Assembly: GCF_017301735.1 (NCBI RefSeq)
Contig: NZ_CP071090.1
Coordinates: 1,426,001 to 1,490,000, forward strand
Direction of reading: 5' to 3'
DNA length: 64,000 nucleotides
Source of the DNA: Pyxidicoccus parkwaysis
GTDB taxonomy: Bacteria > Myxococcota > Myxococcia > Myxococcales > Myxococcaceae
Each line of letters starts with the position of its first letter. The stretch's first letter is position 1. Shown here one piece after another: positions 38,355 to 48,354 of this stretch. A model generated the notes under the pieces. It saw nothing but the letters and a program-made list of their open reading frames with translations, ran no database searches and was not told where the DNA came from. Both the position numbers and the translations under genes were made by a program.

Positions 38355-41300
38355 ATGGAGCTGCCACCCACGGAAGAGTCCACACCTGGCTTCCAGGACC
38401 CGGAGCAGGGGCTGGAAGGCATGTCCGCCCTGGAGCTGGCGGAGACCCTGGAGGACGGATTCCTCGCGGTGGACGCTGCCGGTTTCATTCGGGCGGTGAA
38501 TCCGGCCGCCGAGCGGCTGCTTCAATGTCCCCGGGCCCGGTTGCTCGGCCGTGCGCTGGGCTCGCTCTCCGGCGAGGCGGCCCGCGCCTGGTCCGAGGGG
38601 ACGCCCGCGAAGCTCGTCATCTCTCCTGGGACCTCCGGGCAGAAGCTCGAGCTGCGGCTTCATCCACGGCGTGGCCTGGGCTGGCTCTTCCTACGCGATG
38701 TCTCCCGGGAGCACGGGCGCCAGGGAACCACGGAGGATGAGGTGTCGCGGCAGCGGCTCCGGATGGTGATGAGTCATGCCCCGGTGCTCCTGTTCGCGCT
38801 CGACAGGCAGGGCATCGTCACCCACGCCGCGGGCAAGGGACACGAGCGCCTCGGGTTGCAGTCCGGGGCGCTCATCGGCCGTTCCGTGTTCGATGAGTAC
38901 CGGGACGTCGAGTGGATTGTCGAGAGCATCCGCCGCTCGTTGAGGGGCGAAGAGGTGTCGGTGGTGGGCGCGGTGCAGGGCACCTGGTTCGACGTGCATT
39001 ACACGCCCATCCGCGATGCCACGGGGCAGGTGAACAGCGTCATCGGCGTGGCCACCGATGTGACGGAGCGCGAGCGGGCCCTCCGGGTGCTCCGACATCA
39101 GCAGTCGGTGCTCAAGTATGTCATTGCCAACGTGCCCCACGCCGTCTTCTGGAAGGACCGCCTGGGGCGCTTCCTGGGCGGCAACCAGAACTTCATCAAC
39201 GACAGCGGCGCCGGAAGCCTGGAGAACCTCATCGGGAAGACGGATTTCGAAGTGTGGAGCAAGCGCGAAGAGGCGGAGTTCTTCGTCAAGATTGACCGCG
39301 AGGTGATGGAGCAGGACCGGCCGTTCCATGACATCGAGGAGACGGTCCTCCGTTCGGACGGCTCGCAGCGCACGCTGTTGACCAGCAAGGTCCCCATCCG
39401 GGACGAGGCCGGGCAGGTCACCGGCCTTCTGGGCATCTACGTGGACATCACCGGGCGCAAGCAGATGGAGCTGGAGCTGGAGAAGGCAAAGCAGGCCGCC
39501 GAGAACGCCGCCCGCGCCAAGAGCGAGTTCCTCACCGTGATGAGCCACGAGCTGCGCACGCCGCTCACCCTCATCCTGGGGCCCCTGAGCACGCTGCTCT
39601 CCTCCCGCGCCAGTGAGCTTTCGGAGCGCGCCCGGAGCGACCTCGAGCGCATCCATGGCAATGCCAGACGGCTCTTCCAGCTGGTCGACGACATCCTGGA
39701 CCACCAGAAGCTGGAGGCCGGCCAACTGCGTCTGGACCGGCAGCCCGTGGACGTCGCGAGCTTCGTGGCGGGCCTCGTGGAGGACGCCCGGCCCGCGGGG
39801 AGCTCGCGGGGACTCGACGTGTCTTTCGAGCCGGAGCCGGACCTCGGCGTCGTCCTGCTGGACGAGCGCAAGTTCGAGAAGATTGTCGTCAACCTCCTGG
39901 GCAATGCCCTCAAGTTCACCCCCGCTGGGGGACGGGTGGTTGTGTCCCTGCGACGGGCGGAGGAGGGCTTCGAGCTGAGCGTCCGTGACACCGGGCCGGG
40001 CATTCCCGTGGCCAAGCAGGAGATGATCTTCCAGCGGTTCCAGCAGCTCGACGGCTCCGCCACGCGCAAGCACGAGGGCACGGGGATGGGCCTGGCCATC
40101 GTGAAGGAGTTCGCGGAGTTGATGGGCGGTCACGTCGCCGTGCGGAGCGAGCCGGGCGAGGGCGCGTGCTTCAGCGTCACCCTGCCTGGAGCCGGGGTGG
40201 AGTCCTCTCCGGAGGGTCCTGACGCCCTGGCCGGGGGCTCCTCCGGGGAGAGCTCCTTCCGGCGGTTCGAAGTCACACCCGAGTCCCTGGAGGTGCCCCG
40301 GCGCCCCGCGCATCCGGCGCCGCACCTGCTCATCGCCGACGACAACCCCGGCATGCGCGCGTACCTGGCGGAGCTGCTGGCGGACGAGTACGACCTGGTG
40401 CTGGTGGAGAACGGCCAGCAGGCGTGGGAGGCGGTGCAGCGGGAGCGGCCGGACGTCATCGTGTCGGACCTCATGATGCCGGAGGTGGACGGCATCGAGC
40501 TGACGGCCCGGCTGAAGGCGGACCCCCGGTACCGGAACGTGCCCGTCATCCTGCTGACGGCCAAGGCCAGCCGCGAGGACGTCGTCGGAGGTCTGGACGC
40601 GGGCGCGGATGACTACCTGGGCAAGCCTTTCGGTCCAGCGGAGCTGAGGGCCCGGGTGCGGGCCGCGGTGCGCCTGCACCGCGTCTACCTGGAGCTGCAG
40701 GACACGCTGCGGACGCTGCGCGACACCCAGGAGCAGATGGTGGAAGGCGCCCGGCGGGCCGCGGTGGGCACCCTGGTGGCGGGGCTCTCCCATGAGCTGA
40801 ACAACCCGCTCGCCGTCATCCGCCTGAACTCCCAGATGCTCAGCAAGCACCTGATGGAGCCGGCGAGCCTGCGCAAGCTGCTGCTCTCCATCGACCGGCA
40901 GTCGCAGCGGTGCTCGCACGTGCTCAAGGCGCTGCTGGAGCTGTCGCACCAGGCGTCCATCAAGCGCGAGTGGTTCCAGGCGGGAGTGTTGGTGGACCGG
41001 GTGCTCGGCGCCATCCGCTCCGAGGCGCACCGGCGCGGCGTCCACCTGGAGTCAGTGCCAGCTCCGGCCGGCTCGCCCTGGGTCCACGTGAATGCCGCGG
41101 AGGTGGAGTCCGCGTTGAGCAACGTGGTGACCAACGCGCTGGAGGTGAGCCCGCCGGGGGCCAGCGTCGTGGTCGAGGTGCAGCCGCGAGAGCGAGCCGG
41201 CAGGGAAGGGGTGGAGGTGCTGGTGCGGGACAGCGGGCCCGGCATCCCGGCGGAGGTGCTGCCGCAGGTCTTCGACCCCTTCTTCACGACGAAGCCCCCG

Positions 41301-41477
41301 GGCGAAGGCATGGGGCTCGGTCTGGCGCTGGCCCGCCGTTTCATCGACGGCCAGGGCGGCGCCGTCCAGGTGGAGAGCGAGGAGGGCCATGGCACCGGGG
41401 TCCGCCTGTGGCTGCCCGCGCGGGCTTCGCTCCATGAAGAGGCACGTCCCACCACGGCGGGAGGCCCGGGATGGTGA
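38355..41477 (+). CDS. Cytoplasmic hybrid histidine kinase with two kinase cores
   Basis: 1040 residues without membrane helices. Order: three PAS-type domains (about 22-110, 130-235, 245-375); HisKA with FLTVMSHELRTPL; HATPase (LLGNALKFTPAGG, GMGLAIVKEFAELMGG); receiver (about 655-770) with IADDN, VSDLMMPEVDG and K in GKPFG; then a second kinase core, GLSHELNNPLAVIRLN with HATPase NVVTNALEVSPPGA and GMGLGLALARRF. Two complete transmitters around one receiver suggest an internal phosphorelay. No output regulator is adjacent. ATG 38355 starts after a poor ribosome site. Confidence 0.92.
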   Translation: MELPPTEESTPGFQDPEQGLEGMSALELAETLEDGFLAVDAAGFIRAVNPAAERLLQCPRARLLGRALGSLSGEAARAWSEGTPAKLVISPGTSGQKLELRLHPRRGLGWLFLRDVSREHGRQGTTEDEVSRQRLRMVMSHAPVLLFALDRQGIVTHAAGKGHERLGLQSGALIGRSVFDEYRDVEWIVESIRRSLRGEEVSVVGAVQGTWFDVHYTPIRDATGQVNSVIGVATDVTERERALRVLRHQQSVLKYVIANVPHAVFWKDRLGRFLGGNQNFINDSGAGSLENLIGKTDFEVWSKREEAEFFVKIDREVMEQDRPFHDIEETVLRSDGSQRTLLTSKVPIRDEAGQVTGLLGIYVDITGRKQMELELEKAKQAAENAARAKSEFLTVMSHELRTPLTLILGPLSTLLSSRASELSERARSDLERIHGNARRLFQLVDDILDHQKLEAGQLRLDRQPVDVASFVAGLVEDARPAGSSRGLDVSFEPEPDLGVVLLDERKFEKIVVNLLGNALKFTPAGGRVVVSLRRAEEGFELSVRDTGPGIPVAKQEMIFQRFQQLDGSATRKHEGTGMGLAIVKEFAELMGGHVAVRSEPGEGACFSVTLPGAGVESSPEGPDALAGGSSGESSFRRFEVTPESLEVPRRPAHPAPHLLIADDNPGMRAYLAELLADEYDLVLVENGQQAWEAVQRERPDVIVSDLMMPEVDGIELTARLKADPRYRNVPVILLTAKASREDVVGGLDAGADDYLGKPFGPAELRARVRAAVRLHRVYLELQDTLRTLRDTQEQMVEGARRAAVGTLVAGLSHELNNPLAVIRLNSQMLSKHLMEPASLRKLLLSIDRQSQRCSHVLKALLELSHQASIKREWFQAGVLVDRVLGAIRSEAHRRGVHLESVPAPAGSPWVHVNAAEVESALSNVVTNALEVSPPGASVVVEVQPRERAGREGVEVLVRDSGPGIPAEVLPQVFDPFFTTKPPGEGMGLGLALARRFIDGQGGAVQVESEEGHGTGVRLWLPARASLHEEARPTTAGGPGW

Positions 41478-41520
41478 GCGGCTCCCAGCTCCAAGCCCTT
41501 CGACCTGGACGACGCTCACC
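41473..41520. terminator. Possible bidirectional terminator between convergent genes
   Basis: GGTGAGCG (41473-41480) pairs with CGCTCACC (41513-41520), with an inner CCAG/CTGG pair. The stem spans the stop codons of the hybrid kinase and of the HlyD gene. There is no T-tract, so it is weak evidence. Confidence 0.35.
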
Positions 41521-42718
41521 CCTCGACGCGGTCGAAGAGCTTCGACAGGACGAGCTCGTAGAGCTTCATCCGCCCGGTGACAATCTCCCCACGCACCTTG
41601 TAGCCCGGGCGGACCTCGAACGGGTGGGGCGGGGGCAGGTCCACGATGGCGAAGAACTCGTTGGCATCGTTCGGCGGGGAGACGTAGCGGACGCGCCCCC
41701 TGAGCACGCCGTACCGGTGGAAGTGGAACGCGTCCACCTTGAGGTTCGCCGGCTGGCCCGCCAGCACCCGCTTCACCTCGTCCTGCGTCAGCTTGAACTT
41801 CGCATACAGCGCGCTGCCCTCCTCCAGCACGGGCGCCACCTCGACCAGGATTTCTCCCGAGAGAATCCGGTCGCTGCTCGCCTTCGTGTTGTAGACGTAG
41901 CGGATGGTGCCGCGGATGTCCGCCCGCACCTCCCGCCGCGCCGCGAGCCGGACGCGCAGCTCCTTCTCCTCGCGCTGCTTCTCCACCTCCCTGCGCAGCT
42001 TGTTGGCCCGCTCGAGCAGGGACAGCCGCGCCGCCTCCGCGCCGAGCAGCTCCAGCTCGACGCGGGTGAGCTCGTCGCGGTAGGTGCCGCCCAGCTTCAG
42101 CTTCGTCGCCTCCTGCTCCCGCCGGAGCCTCCGCAGCTCGGTGGCGGCGCTCCTTGCCTCCAGCACGCCGCGTTGGTCCGTCTCGTGCTCCTCCTTCGAA
42201 AGGAGCCCTCGCGCCACCAGGTCGCGGCTGCGCTCCTCCTTCACCTCCGCCAGCGCCTGCTGCTCGCGGGCGAGCTCCAGCTGGCGCGAGTACGCGTCCA
42301 GGCTCTCGCGGACCTGGGCCTTGTCCACCCCATGTTTCTCTTGCAGAAGGGCGAGCTGGCGGCGGTGGCGCACGGCCTGCTCGCTCGCGTTGTCCATCTG
42401 CTCCACCACCGTGCGCAGCTCCTCCTCCAGGGCCGCGTAGTCCGCCTCCGCCTTTCGCGAGGCGGCATCGACCTCCTCGTTGTCCAGGAGCATCAAGAGC
42501 TGCCCCTCCTGGACCGTGTCTCCCTCCTTGACGTACTGGGCCACCACCCGCACCTCGTACGGCGCCTTGTGGACGGAGCGGGGGCGGTAGGAGAGCACCT
42601 CGCCCTCGCGGACGTGGACGACGGCATTGACCTCCACCGTCGCGAAGAGCACCGCCCCGAGGCCGAAGCCTCCCAGAATCAGGGCGAACATCCGCCGGAT
42701 GAAGCGCAGGCCATTCAT
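41516..42718 (-). CDS. HlyD-type membrane fusion protein of a peptide exporter
   Basis: 400 residues: one N-terminal membrane helix (about 10-30), a biotinyl-lipoyl half (YVKEGDTVQEGQLLMLLDNEEV), and a long alpha-helical hairpin of about 170 residues rich in Glu/Arg/Leu. The second lipoyl and barrel parts follow (IRGTIRYVYNT, SGEILVEVAPV, VRPGYKVRGEIVTGRMKLYELV). This adaptor spans the periplasm between an inner-membrane ABC exporter and an outer-membrane channel. It overlaps the ABC gene by ATGA and is last in the operon of the histidine-rich peptide. No TolC gene is adjacent, so a shared one is expected. Confidence 0.88.
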   Translation of the reverse strand: MNGLRFIRRMFALILGGFGLGAVLFATVEVNAVVHVREGEVLSYRPRSVHKAPYEVRVVAQYVKEGDTVQEGQLLMLLDNEEVDAASRKAEADYAALEEELRTVVEQMDNASEQAVRHRRQLALLQEKHGVDKAQVRESLDAYSRQLELAREQQALAEVKEERSRDLVARGLLSKEEHETDQRGVLEARSAATELRRLRREQEATKLKLGGTYRDELTRVELELLGAEAARLSLLERANKLRREVEKQREEKELRVRLAARREVRADIRGTIRYVYNTKASSDRILSGEILVEVAPVLEEGSALYAKFKLTQDEVKRVLAGQPANLKVDAFHFHRYGVLRGRVRYVSPPNDANEFFAIVDLPPPHPFEVRPGYKVRGEIVTGRMKLYELVLSKLFDRVEG

Positions 42719-45174
42719 GCCACGTCCCGGGCCGACGTGCCGTCCGCCGCCCCCTCCTGGATGCGCCCGCCGCGCAGCAGGAGCTTGCGGCTCAGGGGCA
42801 GGTCCGGCACGGACTCGTGCGAGATGAACAGCATCGCCCGGTCGCCAATCTCTCCCAGCAGCCTGGCGATGGCGGCCTTCGACTCCTGGTCAATCCCCCG
42901 GAATATCTCGTCGAAAATCAGCACGTCCGCCTCCGAGAGCAGGGCGCGCAGCACCAGCACCTTGCGCCGCTGGCCGGTGGACAGGTTGCGTCCTCCCTCC
43001 TCGATGAGCCGCTCCAGGTTGTCCGGGTGCTGGACGATGCAGTCGTAGAAGCCGATTCGCCTCGCCAGCTCCACGACGTTCCGCGTGCTCTGGCGCCGGC
43101 CGAAGGTGATGTTGAAGCGCAGTGTCTCGTTGAAGAGAGTGTCCTCCGCGGAGACGAGCACCACCCGGCGCCGCAGCGCCCGCTCGCCATGGAGCTCGCG
43201 AGCGACTTCGTTGACCAGCACCGTCCCTCCGGAGGGTGGCTGGAGCCCGGCGAGCAGCCGCACCAGGGTGGACTTCCCGCTCCCGTTGGCTCCCTGCAGG
43301 AGCACCTTCTCACCCTTGCGCAGCGTCAGGTCCACTCCTTCCAGGACGCCCAGTCCCGAGGGGTAGCGGTAGGCGAGCCCCCGCGCCTCCAGCGAATCCA
43401 CCCGCACGTCCTCCTCGGTCGCGTGAGAGACACGGCGGGCCGCGCCCTCGTCGAAGTCGAAGTAGCGCCGCAGAATCACCAGGTTCTCCTGCAGCGACAG
43501 GTTCTCTTCGATCAGCGTGGTGAAGGAGGAGAAGATCTTCGCCGACAGGGAGATGAAGGTGAGGAGCTGTCCGAGCGTGACGCTCTGCTGGGCAATCAGC
43601 GCGCGGGCGCACACCAGGATGAGCACCAGCGAGGCGACCGTGGTGACGAGGGCGACGGCCGCGTTGCTGCCGAGGTCGAGCAGCTTCCCCTTGCGCTGCG
43701 TCTCCTGGTAGCGCCCCGCCTGGGCCCCCAGCTGCGCGCTGAAGTGCGCCTCCAGGTTGAAGGTCCGGATGGTCTGCACTCCCTCCAGCCCTTCCATCAT
43801 GCAGGAGAGCAGGTCGGCCTTGTTCCGGAAGCGCTCGCTCTCCAGCTTCCGCAGCGCCGGCGTCATCGCCAAAAGGAGGCCGCCCAGCACCAGCAGGGTC
43901 AGCAGCACCAGCGAGGCGGCCTGCCAGTTGAGCACGAACAACACGATGAGCGAGTTGAGCGAGACACAGGCATTGACGGCGATGCGTGAGAAGTAGCTCG
44001 TGAAGAAGCTCTTGAGCTTGAGGCTGTCGCTGAGGCGCTCGAGCAGGTCTCCCCGCGTGAAGGAGCGCAGGTACAGGAGGCTCCCCGTCAGCATCCGCTC
44101 TCCGAAGCGCAGCAGGAAGTAGCGGTCCAGCTCCAGGCCCAGGTGTATCGACACGTACCGGGTGAACACCCCCATGAGGATGTCGAACAGCCTGAAGAGT
44201 CCCAGGCCCAGCGTGAAGGTGACCAGCACGCCGAAGTCGAACTGGGGGATGACTTCGTCCACGAGCAGCTGGTTGACGAACACGGCGGCGTGCGTCGTCA
44301 CGGACGAGAACACGGCGGCCACGAGGAAGGCGTACCAGATGCCTCGCAGCGAGCCGAGCTCCCTCAACAGCCGCCGGAGCGGATGGACGGGTGTCGCGTC
44401 CGGCACCTGCCGGTCCGCCCTCGTGGCTGGCGCCTGCACCGCGAGCACCACGGGTGTCGCCAGCGTCCGCTTCTCCTCGCTGCCCTCCACCGCGCGGAAG
44501 CGCTGGGGAACGGACGAGAGCTGCTGGTGGTGGATGAGGTCGGCGAGGAAGGCCCGCTCGGCCGCCTCGTCCTTCAACCCGAAGTTCTGCTTCACGTAGC
44601 TGAAGTAGAGGAGCTTGTTGTACAGCGCCGCCAGCTCGGTCTCGGTCGGTGGCGTTTCCAACTGGACCCCGTACTTCTTCAGCTCCTCCAGCACCTGGCC
44701 CCGGATGCGGCCGCGCCACAATTCCTCCGTCAGGGGCACCTGCACGGTGTGCGCCCTCCGGATGAAGTCGGCCGCCGTCCAGTGCTCCACCTGTCCGCGC
44801 GTGGGGTTGAGGATGCGCAGCCGCCCCGACACCACCCCGTCGACCACGACGTAGTGCAGCCGTCCGGTGCCCTGCTCTCGCACCGTGGCCAGACACGGGG
44901 AGAGCTCACCCAGCTTCTTCTCCAGCCCCGCGACATCGTTGACGTCCAGCGGCTGCGTGCGCACCCCGAAGCCGTGGTCCCGGAAGAACGTCTTGAGGCT
45001 GTCGAGGCGCAGCCCCTCGACGTCCAGCGGGAGCGCGGCGGCAATGGCCGCGCGGCTCATGGGGACCCCGAGCCGGTCGCAAATCGTCTTCACCGCGCTG
45101 ATGCCGCAGTCGTTGCTCCTCAGCTGCGGGTCCACCTTCGGACGGGCCCGGTGCAGCCATTCCCGGAGGCTCAT
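42715..45174 (-). CDS. Peptidase-containing ABC transporter (C39 type) for a double-glycine peptide
   Basis: 819 residues. An N-terminal C39 peptidase has Q17, catalytic C23 in RSNDCGISAVKTI, and H107 in RLHYVVVDG. The usual Asp of the DP motif is N123 (ILNPTRG). Residues 135-270 are an unusual charged helical insert. The six-helix permease follows (about 290-570), then the ATPase with Walker A QGANGSGKSTL, signature LSTGQRRK, Walker B VLIFDEIF and switch His ISHES. Such exporters cut leaders after GG and secrete the core. The substrate is very probably the 63-residue peptide encoded upstream. It overlaps both neighbouring genes by 4 bases. Confidence 0.9.
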   Translation of the reverse strand: MSLREWLHRARPKVDPQLRSNDCGISAVKTICDRLGVPMSRAAIAAALPLDVEGLRLDSLKTFFRDHGFGVRTQPLDVNDVAGLEKKLGELSPCLATVREQGTGRLHYVVVDGVVSGRLRILNPTRGQVEHWTAADFIRRAHTVQVPLTEELWRGRIRGQVLEELKKYGVQLETPPTETELAALYNKLLYFSYVKQNFGLKDEAAERAFLADLIHHQQLSSVPQRFRAVEGSEEKRTLATPVVLAVQAPATRADRQVPDATPVHPLRRLLRELGSLRGIWYAFLVAAVFSSVTTHAAVFVNQLLVDEVIPQFDFGVLVTFTLGLGLFRLFDILMGVFTRYVSIHLGLELDRYFLLRFGERMLTGSLLYLRSFTRGDLLERLSDSLKLKSFFTSYFSRIAVNACVSLNSLIVLFVLNWQAASLVLLTLLVLGGLLLAMTPALRKLESERFRNKADLLSCMMEGLEGVQTIRTFNLEAHFSAQLGAQAGRYQETQRKGKLLDLGSNAAVALVTTVASLVLILVCARALIAQQSVTLGQLLTFISLSAKIFSSFTTLIEENLSLQENLVILRRYFDFDEGAARRVSHATEEDVRVDSLEARGLAYRYPSGLGVLEGVDLTLRKGEKVLLQGANGSGKSTLVRLLAGLQPPSGGTVLVNEVARELHGERALRRRVVLVSAEDTLFNETLRFNITFGRRQSTRNVVELARRIGFYDCIVQHPDNLERLIEEGGRNLSTGQRRKVLVLRALLSEADVLIFDEIFRGIDQESKAAIARLLGEIGDRAMLFISHESVPDLPLSRKLLLRGGRIQEGAADGTSARDVA

Positions 45175-46436
45175 GGGTGTGCACGCTCCCTGGCCCGGAG
45201 TGTCCGCGCGTCGCGCCGCCAGGCCTCCAGCAGCTCCACGGCGCTGGGGAAGCGCTCCTCGGGGACCTTGGCGAGGGCGCGGCCGATGACGTCGGCGAGG
45301 GCGTCCGGGATGCGCTCGCCCTCGGGGGCCCACACCGCGCGAGGGGCGGGCTGAGCGCGGATGGACTGCGCCAGCCGTCTCCACAGCACCTTCTCCGGGA
45401 AGGGCTCCTGGCTCGTGAGGATGAGGTGGAGCAACACCCCCAGCTGGAACACCTCCGAGCGCATGTCACCCGGGCGGCTGCTGATGCTGAGCGAGCCGGG
45501 CTCGATGCGCTCGGGGGGCATGAAGGCGGGAAGGCCGCCGTGGGGGACGGATGATGCCTCCGCCGCGTCGCTGCTGCGCCGCGCGAGGCCGAAGTCGATG
45601 AGCTTCACCCGGTGCTCGTCCGTCAGCATGAAGTTGCGCGAGTGGACATCGCCGTGCAGCAAGCCGTGGTGGTGCAGGTGGGCGAGCGCGGCGAGCGCCT
45701 CGGCGCCGATGCGCACCCGCTCCGGCAGCGACAGGCAGACGTTCGTCGTGGCCCGGCGGATGGGCGTGGTGCCGGCGTACTCCAGCACCGCGTAGCAGGG
45801 CTCCCCGGCGTGGAAGGCCAGGAGGCGGCAGATGTTCTCATGGGGGGCCAGCCCGGCCATGAGGGAGAACTCCCGCTCGAAGAGCTCGCGCTCCCGCTTC
45901 GCCCTGGGCCCCTGCAGGACGAAGACCTTGAGCACCGCGGGCAGCCCGGTGCCTACCTGCCGCGCGTGGTGGAGCGCCACGTCCACCTTGTCCACAATCA
46001 GCGCTCCGACGCGGTACTCACCGAGCACCTGCCCGGGAGTGAGCGCCCAGGTGGACTCCTCCTGGAGGTCCGTCCCCGCGGAGCGCAGGACGCCAGCGCG
46101 TCGCATGCGCTGGAAGAAGGTCCGCACCGTGGGGGCGATGGCCTCCGTGGGACACCCCGCCTGGCGCGCCAGCTCCTCGAGCGCGGCCTCCTCCGAGCGC
46201 GGCTGCCTGAACAGCTCCAGGTAGCTCTTGATGGCCAGGTTGACGAGGTAGCAGTGCTGGTTGTCGCGTGTATTCTCCACCACGAAGCGCTCGCCGACGC
46301 TTGCGCCGGTGAGCGCTTCCGAGCCACCCAGGAGATTCGAGCCCTCGTCCTCGCTCAACGGACGGAGCTCGAAGTACTCCGGAAACACATAGAGGCGTTG
46401 TTGTCTCATGGTCGAGACTGGGGCGTGGTGCGCCAT
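45171..46436 (-). CDS. Protein kinase with PqqD/RRE-like N-terminal domain, probable peptide-modifying enzyme
   Basis: 421 residues. Residues 45-118 (FVVENTRDNQHCYLVNLAIKS, then LEELARQAG and FFQRMRRAGVL) follow the pattern of PqqD-like RiPP recognition elements. Residues 138-410 are a Hanks-type kinase: K170 in AVLKVF, E187/E189, the catalytic loop HGDVHSRN (D263, N268), DFG (281-283) and MPPERI. Key residues are intact. No lanthionine cyclase or lyase domain is present. Position between the Ser-rich precursor gene and its exporter suggests it binds the leader and phosphorylates core serines; this is inference. An alternative start is ATG 46409. Confidence 0.82.
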   Translation of the reverse strand: MAHHAPVSTMRQQRLYVFPEYFELRPLSEDEGSNLLGGSEALTGASVGERFVVENTRDNQHCYLVNLAIKSYLELFRQPRSEEAALEELARQAGCPTEAIAPTVRTFFQRMRRAGVLRSAGTDLQEESTWALTPGQVLGEYRVGALIVDKVDVALHHARQVGTGLPAVLKVFVLQGPRAKRERELFEREFSLMAGLAPHENICRLLAFHAGEPCYAVLEYAGTTPIRRATTNVCLSLPERVRIGAEALAALAHLHHHGLLHGDVHSRNFMLTDEHRVKLIDFGLARRSSDAAEASSVPHGGLPAFMPPERIEPGSLSISSRPGDMRSEVFQLGVLLHLILTSQEPFPEKVLWRRLAQSIRAQPAPRAVWAPEGERIPDALADVIGRALAKVPEERFPSAVELLEAWRRDARTLRARERAHP

Positions 46437-46458
46437 GGCTGAAGCCTGTTCTTCAGCC
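46437..46458 (-). promoter_or_regulatory. Hairpin between precursor-peptide and kinase genes
   Basis: GGCTGAAG (46437-46444) pairs perfectly with CTTCAGCC (46451-46458) across a 6-base loop. It fills almost the whole 29-base gap and touches the kinase start codon. Peptide operons often carry such a structure so that more precursor than enzyme is made. No T-tract follows, so processing or a translational brake is as likely as attenuation. Confidence 0.5.
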
Positions 46459-46465
46459 CTTGCGA

Positions 46466-46657
46466 CTACTGGCCAAACTTCCAGGAGCAGCTCTTGCTCT
46501 TGCTCTTGCTCTTGTGGCTATGGCTGTGTTTGTGGCTGTGGCTCTTGTGGCTGTGGCTCTTGTGGCTGCCGCTGCCCTTCCAGCCGCCCTTGAACTCCAG
46601 GACGCGGTCCATCTGCTCTTCGGTCAGCTCATCGAGAATGTTCGAAAGGTTCAGCAT
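46466..46657 (-). CDS. Double-glycine precursor of a Ser/His/Lys-repeat peptide
   Basis: 63 residues from ATG 46657, preceded by GAGGGGG; an upstream in-frame ATG at 46696 lacks a ribosome site. The leader MLNLSNILDELTEEQMDRVL ends EFKGG (residues 21-25), a canonical C39 cleavage site. The 38-residue core begins WKGSGS, continues as SHK/SH repeats with eight His, then SKSKSKS, one Cys (about residue 57), and ends SWKFGQ. It is strongly basic and low complexity, unlike known bacteriocins; it recalls histatins and metal-binding His tracts. It is first in an operon with the kinase, exporter and adaptor. Exported, probably modified on Ser; target unknown. Confidence 0.8.
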   Translation of the reverse strand: MLNLSNILDELTEEQMDRVLEFKGGWKGSGSHKSHSHKSHSHKHSHSHKSKSKSKSCSWKFGQ

Positions 46658-46724
46658 CGAAGTCCCCCTCGAAAGGGTTGATGGTGAATGTTTCAAATGA
46701 CGATGCCGTAGCGCCCCCCGCCCC

Positions 46725-46751
46725 CGATGCGACCCAGACTGAATCGCATCG
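46725..46751. promoter_or_regulatory. Inverted repeat upstream of the peptide operon
   Basis: CGATGCGA (46725-46732) and TCGCATCG (46744-46751), 11 bases apart, lie 68-94 bases before the peptide start. Size and spacing fit a dimeric regulator site near the promoter. No -35/-10 pair is convincing on the minus strand. Confidence 0.35.
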
Positions 46752-46881
46752 CAAGAGAACGATAATCATGTCCCTCTCGCCTCAGAACGGCCCCCGGGGC
46801 TCGCTCTGGCGGCGCGTAACACACAGAGGACGATGTATTGGACACGGGCCTCCCGGGGCCTGACGGCTCGCCTCCCGGGGT

Positions 46882-48354
46882 TCAGTGCGTGGGATGCGAG
46901 GCGTCCGCCTCTACGTCCCGTGAGCCTTCCCACGGAGGGCCTTCCACGGGCAGCTCGACGATGAACGTCGCTCCCGCGCCCTGCTGGCTCTCCACGCGGA
47001 TGCGTCCGCCGTGGCTGGCGGCGATGCTCTGGGCGATGTAGAGCCCCAGCCCCAGCCCGCCGTAGTGGCGCACCGACACCGCGCGCTCGAACCGGTCGAA
47101 GATGCGCGCCTGGTCCTCCTCCGCGATGCCCACCCCGTGGTCCCTGACGCTCAACCACGCGGTGCCATCCCGCTGGCCCACCCCCACTTCAATGGGCCTG
47201 CCGGCTCCGTACTTGAGCGCATTGCCCAGGAGGTTACTGAGCACCTGGTCCAACCTCGCCGGGTCCCACCGGCCCACCACCGGCTGCTCCACCTCCAGGG
47301 AGATGACAGTCTGACTGGTGCGGCACTCCTCGGAGAGCCGCTGAATCGCTTCCTGGAGGAGGGCCACGAGGTCCACCTCCTCCAAGTCCAATTGGAGCTT
47401 GCCGCTGGTGATTCGCGAGACATCCAGGAGGTTGTAGATGAGCGTCTCCAGCCGCCGGAGTTGCTTGCCGATGAGCCCCAAATCCCTCTGCAACAGTCCC
47501 GTCCCCTGGTCCGACAGTGTCCCTCGCGCGGCGGCCCGTGTGAGGGATTGGACCTCCAGCTTGAGCGGGGTGAGGGGAGTCCTCAGCTCGTGTGAGGCGA
47601 TGGAGAGGAATTCCTCACGCACCCGGATGGCCTCCTGCGCCTCCCGCTGCCGGCGCCCCACCTCCACCAACATGGTGTTGAAGGTGTCCGCCAGGAAGCC
47701 AATCTCGTCGTCGCTCACCTTCCGGGCCCTGACGGAGTAGTCGCCCTTTTCGGCGACGACGCGCGCCACCTCCGCCAGCGCGAGGATGCGCCGGGTGATG
47801 AGGCGCTGCAGCAGGAACGCCAGCCCCAGTGAGAGCCCGGCCACTCCCACCGCCACCACCAGGATGCCGAGCAGATAGGCATTGATGCGGGCCTGGAGCG
47901 GGACAGCCGAGGCCTGCACGCGGAGGCTGCCGTAGCGCACTCCTTCGTGGATGACGGGCTGGATGACGTTGAGGTGTCTGGCATCCAGCCGCACCCACCG
48001 CCCCTCCACGGGGACGACGGGGAGCGGGACGCCTCCCGGAACCCCCGGACGCCGGTACGACGCGAGGAGGTGGCCTCGCGCGTCCTGAATCGTGGCGAAC
48101 TCCAACTCCGGGAGCGACGCCAGCCGCACGAGTGTCTGCCGCGCCGCCACCTCGTCCTGGAAGGCGAGCGCCGCGGCGCTGTACTCACTGGCCACGGCCG
48201 CGGCCAGCGACGTCGTGGAGATGAGGTCCTCGCGGAAGGACCGGATGTCTCTCACGGCGACGATGCCGAGCCCCGTTCCCATGGGGACGAGCAGCCCGAT
48301 GAAGAGCAACACCGTCAGCTTGCTTCGCAGCGAGAGCGACTCCCAGTACTTCAT
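46882..48354 (-). CDS. Membrane sensor histidine kinase (CHASE8-type sensor, HAMP)
   Basis: 490 residues. Two membrane helices (about 14-36 and 160-185) flank a periplasmic sensor whose ASEYSAAALAFQDEVAARQTL matches CHASE8-type domains. Then HAMP, HisKA with EEFLSIASHELRTPLTPL, and HATPase with LSNLLGNALKYG, DHGVGIAEEDQ and GGLGLGLYIA. It overlaps the YfiR-like gene by 4 bases, so the periplasmic protein encoded upstream is a likely input. No response regulator is adjacent. Confidence 0.9.
   Translation of the reverse strand: MKYWESLSLRSKLTVLLFIGLLVPMGTGLGIVAVRDIRSFREDLISTTSLAAAVASEYSAAALAFQDEVAARQTLVRLASLPELEFATIQDARGHLLASYRRPGVPGGVPLPVVPVEGRWVRLDARHLNVIQPVIHEGVRYGSLRVQASAVPLQARINAYLLGILVVAVGVAGLSLGLAFLLQRLITRRILALAEVARVVAEKGDYSVRARKVSDDEIGFLADTFNTMLVEVGRRQREAQEAIRVREEFLSIASHELRTPLTPLKLEVQSLTRAAARGTLSDQGTGLLQRDLGLIGKQLRRLETLIYNLLDVSRITSGKLQLDLEEVDLVALLQEAIQRLSEECRTSQTVISLEVEQPVVGRWDPARLDQVLSNLLGNALKYGAGRPIEVGVGQRDGTAWLSVRDHGVGIAEEDQARIFDRFERAVSVRHYGGLGLGLYIAQSIAASHGGRIRVESQQGAGATFIVELPVEGPPWEGSRDVEADASHPTH

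Follow-up and report, generated by a model that had tools for sequence, protein, structure and literature searches.

What might a cell make with a kinase that is encoded beside a short secreted peptide and its exporter, when neither a lyase nor a cyclase accompanies it? The question is raised by a locus in a window of 64,000 nucleotides (the whole stretch of DNA analyzed here, bases 1426001-1490000 of the 13.2 Mb, one-contig genome of Pyxidicoccus parkwaysis), in which four consecutive genes on the minus strand encode a 63-aa precursor peptide (46466..46657), a 412-aa fusion of an RRE-like domain with a Hanks-type kinase (45171..46409), an 819-aa C39-peptidase ABC exporter (42715..45174) and a 400-aa HlyD-type periplasmic adaptor (41516..42718). 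The precursor assignment draws on its ORF and the alignment of seven orthologs, that of the kinase on its ORF, Pfam and the ortholog alignment, and those of the exporter and the adaptor on Pfam domains. A first-pass annotation of this DNA had called the four genes and their positions correctly, and the overlaps that it described among the last three, of 4 bases between kinase and exporter and of 4 bases between exporter and adaptor, are seen in the window.

A compact cassette conserved in seven genomes

The cassette is real, conserved and compact. The first 135 residues of the kinase match 7 of 195 genomes of the phylum, window included, at 70-100% identity, and a profile of the 27-residue leader region returns the identical seven genomes at 73.1-76.5 bits, the next best match scoring 19.9. 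A profile of the N-terminal domain of the kinase yields the same set once more (224-261 bits), with 15 further genomes at or below 18.4 bits. Since the leader profile and the kinase N-terminus return the same 7 of 195 genomes, the linkage of precursor and kinase, as judged from sequence searches, is more than chance; conservation of the precursor beside the kinase in relatives, a check that had been set beforehand, was thus borne out. The carriers belong to five genera of a single family and make up 2 of the 27 genomes in the genus of the window genome (G000), of which G011 is a congener according to the genus grouping of the genome collection. The order of the four genes is identical at all seven loci, the 4-base overlap between kinase and exporter is kept at every one of them and the precursor gene invariably lies 51-56 bases upstream of the kinase gene, while identity to the window proteins amounts to 77-80% for the kinases, 81-85% for the exporters and 82-87% for the adaptors. 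A partial search with the exporter matched 2 of 97 genomes, both of them carriers.

An eighth carrier was considered in G114, the sole other match at E <= 0.001 to the kinase N-terminal query among the 195 genomes (E 8.8e-4), and was treated as a chance match because G114 is absent from the profile matches at E <= 0.1 and its frame has no Pfam match at E <= 0.01. A scan of 84,980 species with two short peptide patterns from this cassette family gave 142 pattern matches and five loci, namely four orthologs and one unrelated kinase (27% identity), and did not return the known carriers G123 and G135; as its patterns were drawn from the family itself, the scan reaches close relatives only, and distant RRE-Hanks kinases outside the Myxococcota could be missed by it. 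Among plasmids, 30 records were matched, none of them covering 80% of the kinase.

The surroundings of the cassette were compared among the seven loci, over 26 kb in the window and 17-20 kb in each of the other six, with genes picked by a simple GC3 rule, for which reason small flank genes may be missed. No flanking gene is common to the loci among these ORFs, nor was any lyase, cyclase, immunity or regulator gene found to travel with the unit, and cross-locus matches at E <= 1e-10 are restricted to the cassette genes and to weak ones (24-33%) involving large kinase-like genes. Within the compared ORFs the cassette therefore seems to be self-contained. The large kinase-like genes (L042:40-7022, L043:13960-17391 and L045:830-3859) are found no more than about 8 kb from the cassette at three of the six fetched loci, a proximity probably due to chance, myxobacteria being rich in kinases.

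Similarity of the DNA to the flanks of congeners breaks at 41419-41420 on one side (blastn; G009, G022 and G026) and at 46845-46928 on the other (blastn; G009, G019, G022 and G026), which gives 41421..46844 (unstranded) as the approximate outer limits of an acquired unit that is absent from the homologous flanks of these congeners. Beside G000, homologs of the flanking genes of the window occur in few members of the genus, 4 of 26 for the right flank and 3 of 26 for the left. The left and right flank homologs map to different contigs in G022, and in G026 and G009 they are separated by about 444 kb and about 309 kb, respectively, so that no simple empty site could be found in congeners and breakpoints alone can be given.

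Alignment of the seven upstream regions revealed an inverted repeat before the precursor gene, which in the window takes the form GATGCGAT-N10-TCGCATC (46726..46750, minus strand) and across the carriers that of GATGCGAT-N9/10-TCGCATC. This pattern occurs exactly once per genome in all seven carriers, always upstream of the precursor, and its read-backwards control occurs 0 times. Between 62 and 81 bases separate the end of the repeat from the precursor ATG; 3 of 11 columns are invariant in its spacer, and 47 of 168 in the other upstream columns. The repeat probably serves as an operator or forms a 5' hairpin; no Rfam match was obtained in 41000-47500.

Precursor, exporter and kinase

The leader of the precursor (residues 1-25; 46583..46657, minus strand), as delimited by the leader alignment and profile, follows the pattern MLNLSNILDELTEEQMDRVLEFK-(A/G)-G, and 16 of the 27 columns of the leader region are identical across the seven orthologs (pN/pS 0.23). 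It had been described as a canonical double-glycine leader, which is accurate for the window genome, but the other six orthologs end in Ala-Gly: position -1 is Gly in all seven, and position -2 is Gly in one and Ala in six. Following the rule for C39 peptidases, cleavage after residue 25 is probable.

The remaining residues, 26-63 (46469..46582, minus strand), constitute the core, for which the earlier reading of a Ser/His/Lys repeat within a 63-aa precursor agrees with the composition count of 13 Ser, 9 Lys, 8 His and 1 Cys in 38 residues. Across the seven orthologs the core measures 26-39 residues, of which Ser, Lys, His and Cys together account for 73-87%, with 9-14 Ser, 6-11 Lys, 1-4 Cys and 0-1 Asp+Glu; in none of them is any core residue more frequent than Ser. 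The cores range from a His-rich type with 8 His in the window, by way of extended SK repeats in G107, to a Cys-rich type that lacks His altogether (G011, 4 Cys), and what stays constant is the presence of Ser, Lys and at least one Cys, a Cys being found at an invariant place near the C-terminus in all seven. A constant leader joined to a drifting core is the behavior of RiPP precursors. The histatin-like or metal-binding role first envisaged for the peptide is weak across the family, because His is not constant among the cores (0 in G011 and two each in G107 and G135). A match of the precursor to UreE (E 0.0066) was put down to its His-rich composition, and PHROGs gave no match for it.

The exporter carries the domains expected from the first-pass annotation (Peptidase_C39, 8.6e-10; ABC_membrane, 5.8e-24; ABC_tran, 3.1e-24), as does the adaptor (HlyD_3, 4.4e-9), which also matches the type_I_hlyD model at 7.8e-24 with 84.4 bits, below the model cut-off of 208.65. 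Within the C39 domain Gln17, Cys23 and His107 are invariant in all seven orthologs, and Cys23, His107 and a third residue are presumed from C39 motifs to be catalytic. Asp is usual at the third triad position of C39 peptidases, a type to which the peptidase LahT150 belongs, and the presumed third position here is Asn123 in 7/7. From these residues, peptidase activity is likely. The C39 domain is separated from the transmembrane region by a segment of about 110 residues (residues ~150-262; 44389-44727, minus strand), which is present in all seven orthologs and falls outside the listed Pfam stretches; a low-confidence model would make this segment mainly helical up to about residue 215.

The catalytic part of the kinase (about residues 125-397; 45219..46037, minus strand) is a Hanks-type domain (Pkinase PF00069, 6.3e-27) for which the closest solved structures by sequence are PknB-type kinases. 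Alignment with PknB places K161, E180, D254 (within HGD), N259 and D272 (within DFG), all of them invariant in the seven orthologs, at positions that we take from kinase motifs to be the ATP-binding Lys, the alpha-C Glu, the catalytic Asp, the Asn and the DFG Asp. The kinase had been called intact, and this needs qualification because the glycine-rich loop is gone: the catalytic residues are kept, but the glycines of the PknB loop have no counterparts in the aligned stretch (IVDKVDVAL in the window). The window kinase also has HGD in place of HRD, and the pN/pS of the domain, 0.43, is not low. Against the LanL model the kinase part scores 4.2e-16 and 58.4 bits (cut-off 650), and PHROGs returned generic kinases. 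PADLOC kinase matches (best 1.4e-38, PD-T4-6), which begin from residue 122 on among the matches listed, were not taken to indicate a defense system because the unit contains no other defense gene. No HprK family was found among 13 Pfam matches at E <= 1, and at this threshold none of the four proteins matches the lanthipeptide dehydration family of the phospeptin type. The absence of a lyase or cyclase asserted for the locus likewise agrees with the Pfam matches of the four proteins, among which there is none, and with the lack of a neighbor gene common to the compared loci.

The N-terminus of the kinase had been predicted to contain a PqqD/RRE-like domain, and the check on this point, run by sequence profile only, upheld the prediction for a winged-helix domain at residues 48-108 (46086..46268, minus strand), with the window copy below the Pfam cut-off. 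The Pfam PqqD model scores above its cut-off of 23.4 bits in two of the seven orthologs (24.2 and 28.3) and below it in five (15.0-21.4), the window copy reaching 16.6 bits and the full window protein 14.9. Comparison by hhalign of the seven-row alignment with 25 PqqD domains of the same phylum gave a probability of 90.6% (P 1.3e-6), and 24 controls (20 column shuffles, one reversal and three kinase-domain pieces) gave at most 3.3%. Three NCBIfam models of RiPP peptide binding match 7, 6 and 5 of the seven members (best E 0.014, 0.00096 and 0.0022). Weak unrelated matches of the N-terminus comprise TetR_C_7 in two of seven (best 0.029) and an FAD-dependent dehydrogenase model in five of seven (best 0.05), and a search of PDB sequences with the RRE profile returned no PqqD chain and a single match, to an RNA polymerase subunit at E = 1. 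AlphaFold2 models built from seven-row alignments (mean pLDDT 35.4 for the kinase and 48.4 for the exporter) were too poor for a fold check. The order of strands followed by helices in the kinase model (strands 13-17, 41-46 and 51-56; helices 57-65, 73-84 and 88-104), which is that expected of a PqqD domain, was hence given no weight. We take the kinase N-terminus, on the profile evidence, to be a PqqD/RRE-like domain.

Proposed modification of the core and competing explanations

The sequence itself shows four genes that are conserved together, an RRE-like domain and a kinase domain, and a leader that stays constant while the core drifts. The reading that we favor, and hold to be moderately probable, is that RRE-guided phosphorylation of serines would generate a linear phosphopeptide that is clipped and exported by the C39 exporter. 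The PqqD/RRE domain fused to the kinase would hold the conserved leader around LTEEQMDRVLEFK, allowing the Hanks-type domain to phosphorylate several core serines in the Ser-Lys and Ser-His repeats, and the phosphates would stay on the core because no lyase follows the kinase. The C39 domain would then cut after residue 25, at Gly-Gly or Ala-Gly. Export of the linear, zwitterionic phosphopeptide would fall to the ABC transporter together with the HlyD adaptor and a putative TolC-type pore encoded elsewhere. Phosphate on many Ser among as many Lys would make a zwitterion or a polyanion of a peptide that is otherwise strongly cationic; its possible roles outside the cell are metal or mineral binding, matrix association or service as a masked cationic toxin. 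Phosphorylation alone leaves the core Cys found in all seven orthologs unexplained.

The charge of the core may also be understood in terms of self-protection, with a cationic core active on membranes or nucleic acids being rendered harmless in its producer by phosphorylation and unmasked outside by extracellular phosphatases. All seven cores are indeed cationic (Lys+Arg 6-13, Asp+Glu 0-1), and since the compared ORFs include no further gene common to the loci, they offer no immunity gene that accompanies the unit. The unit, however, contains no phosphatase, and most membrane-active peptides do not resemble the SK repeats found here, which are long and plain and contain few hydrophobic residues, so that we regard this explanation as unlikely.

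A different role for the kinase, in which the RRE senses the leader, the transporter or adaptor is phosphorylated and the peptide is exported unmodified, would make it a regulator of the exporter or of peptide loading. Hanks kinases are mostly regulatory in myxobacteria, and the loss of the glycine loop can be counted in the same direction. Nevertheless, the PqqD-like domain fused to the kinase in 7/7 is the usual mark of a peptide-modifying enzyme, and the prevalence of Ser in every core also argues against an unmodified product; the regulatory role is accordingly considered quite unlikely.

The invariant core Cys speaks for a lanthionine or dehydroamino-acid route in trans, in which the kinase would prime Ser for a lyase and a LanC protein encoded elsewhere to eliminate and cyclize on Cys. 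LANC_like genes are present in all seven genomes, with 30 matches to frames 364-1206 aa long, and LanL-like genes in G000 and G135. Yet the HopA1-type lyase family is found in none of the seven carrier genomes, and a LanL-like match at E <= 1e-60 is missing in five of them, with none above the model cut-off in any; this lyase search covered the HopA1 family and LanL-like proteins only. No neighbor gene is common to the loci among the compared ORFs, and the cores of G107 and G000 offer one Cys for 12-13 Ser, all of which renders a route in trans very unlikely. In G000 itself, outside the window (G000:C1:3611105-3613581), the LanL-like gene is possibly divided between two frames, one of 524 aa that contains model residues 1-438 and a neighboring one of 682 aa that contains the LANC_like part (100-341).

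The least probable explanation, that the domain is a pseudokinase or performs some other transfer on the peptide, such as AMPylation, could account for the missing glycine loop and for HGD instead of HRD, but is hard to reconcile with the invariance in 7/7 of the ATP-binding Lys, the alpha-C Glu, the catalytic Asp, the Asn and the DFG Asp.

Relation to known phosphorylated peptides

The first-pass annotation knew of no described RiPP class with this make-up, a claim that goes too far in view of the published accounts, drawn on here in part, of phospeptin (PMC9259500) and of the LPPs (PMC13381572), both of which are RiPPs made by a kinase without a lyase, the LPP cluster also including an RRE and an exporter. 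The LPPs of Bacillota (Nat Commun, May 2026) are specified by a precursor, an HprK-like kinase, a discrete RRE, a peptidase, an exporter and an NTP transferase, which yield a linear, multiply phosphorylated peptide (PMC13381572). They resemble the cassette in their short leader-core precursor, kinase, RRE, leader peptidase and ABC exporter and, in the cited part of that report, in having no cyclase; their linear phospho-Ser product is also of the kind proposed here (PMC13381572). Besides the HprK-like type of the kinase, the LPP system differs in its separate RRE, its SpI-like peptidase, its NTP transferase and the placing of several phosphates on one Ser (S3), according to the same part of the report (PMC13381572), whereas the cassette presents a Hanks-type kinase fused to the RRE, a C39 domain fused to the exporter, an HlyD adaptor and 9-14 core Ser, and contains no NTP transferase.

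Phospeptin, described in 2022 from 'Ca. Eudoremicrobium malaspinii', is a linear di-phosphorylated RiPP whose maturase, EmbM, is a relative of lanthipeptide dehydration domains that performs no elimination (PMC9259500). Its likeness to the pathway proposed here lies in the use of a single kinase-type maturase without elimination and in the linear product, from which the leader was removed in vitro with LahT150; in the portion of the article drawn on, however, an NMR legend points to phosphothreonine, and the system has neither a Hanks kinase nor an SK-repeat core (PMC9259500). Lasso peptides of the paeninodin type likewise have a precursor Ser phosphorylated by a dedicated kinase (PadeK/ThcoK) before maturation, but they are built on a lasso scaffold and, in the sections cited, are modified at the C-terminal Ser only (PMC9266682), by a kinase that is HprK-like (PMC13381572). 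Like the cassette, the LanKC and LanL enzymes of class III and IV lanthipeptides pair a Ser/Thr kinase-like domain with a precursor that bears a leader; the cassette, in turn, has no lyase or cyclase and has an RRE-like domain, and according to the cited part of PMC10604976 no RRE can be identified in any lanthipeptide enzyme of classes II-V.

A likeness of another sort is offered by the diatom silaffins, zwitterions that combine phosphoserine with cationic side chains and among which phosphorylated silaffin-1A bears 8 phosphates per molecule, as stated in the cited part of PMC11733937. Silaffins and the cassette core are both Ser and Lys peptides, a likeness of composition only that runs through predicted phosphorylation, and silaffins differ in being eukaryotic and in carrying polyamine-modified Lys (PMC11733937). 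Neither an RRE-Hanks kinase fusion nor such a cassette was found in the titles and abstract openings of the open-licence papers that the literature searches listed. What is new relative to the known linear phosphorylated RiPPs is the fusion of an RRE to a Hanks kinase, the route through C39 and the core of SK/SH repeats.

We would tentatively put forward, as a possibility that is on balance doubtful, that the cassette represents a distinct RiPP class built on an RRE-fused Hanks kinase, the secreted and heavily phosphorylated (Ser-Lys)n/(Ser-His)n product of which would be a silaffin-like zwitterion that might impose order on mineral, metal ions or matrix polymers in the extracellular space. 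The RRE-Hanks fusion provides a search handle that is not mentioned in the main text of RRE-Finder, where the word 'kinase' occurs 0 times in the text as accessed (PMC7470986), and a polymer of phosphoserine and lysine that is genetically encoded would serve work on biominerals and metal binding. If the favored reading is right, three kinase origins, HprK-like in the LPPs, dehydration-domain-derived in phospeptin and Hanks-type in the myxobacterial cassette, would each have given rise to makers of phosphorylated linear peptides, and this would speak for phosphorylation by itself as a useful end point of RiPP biosynthesis.
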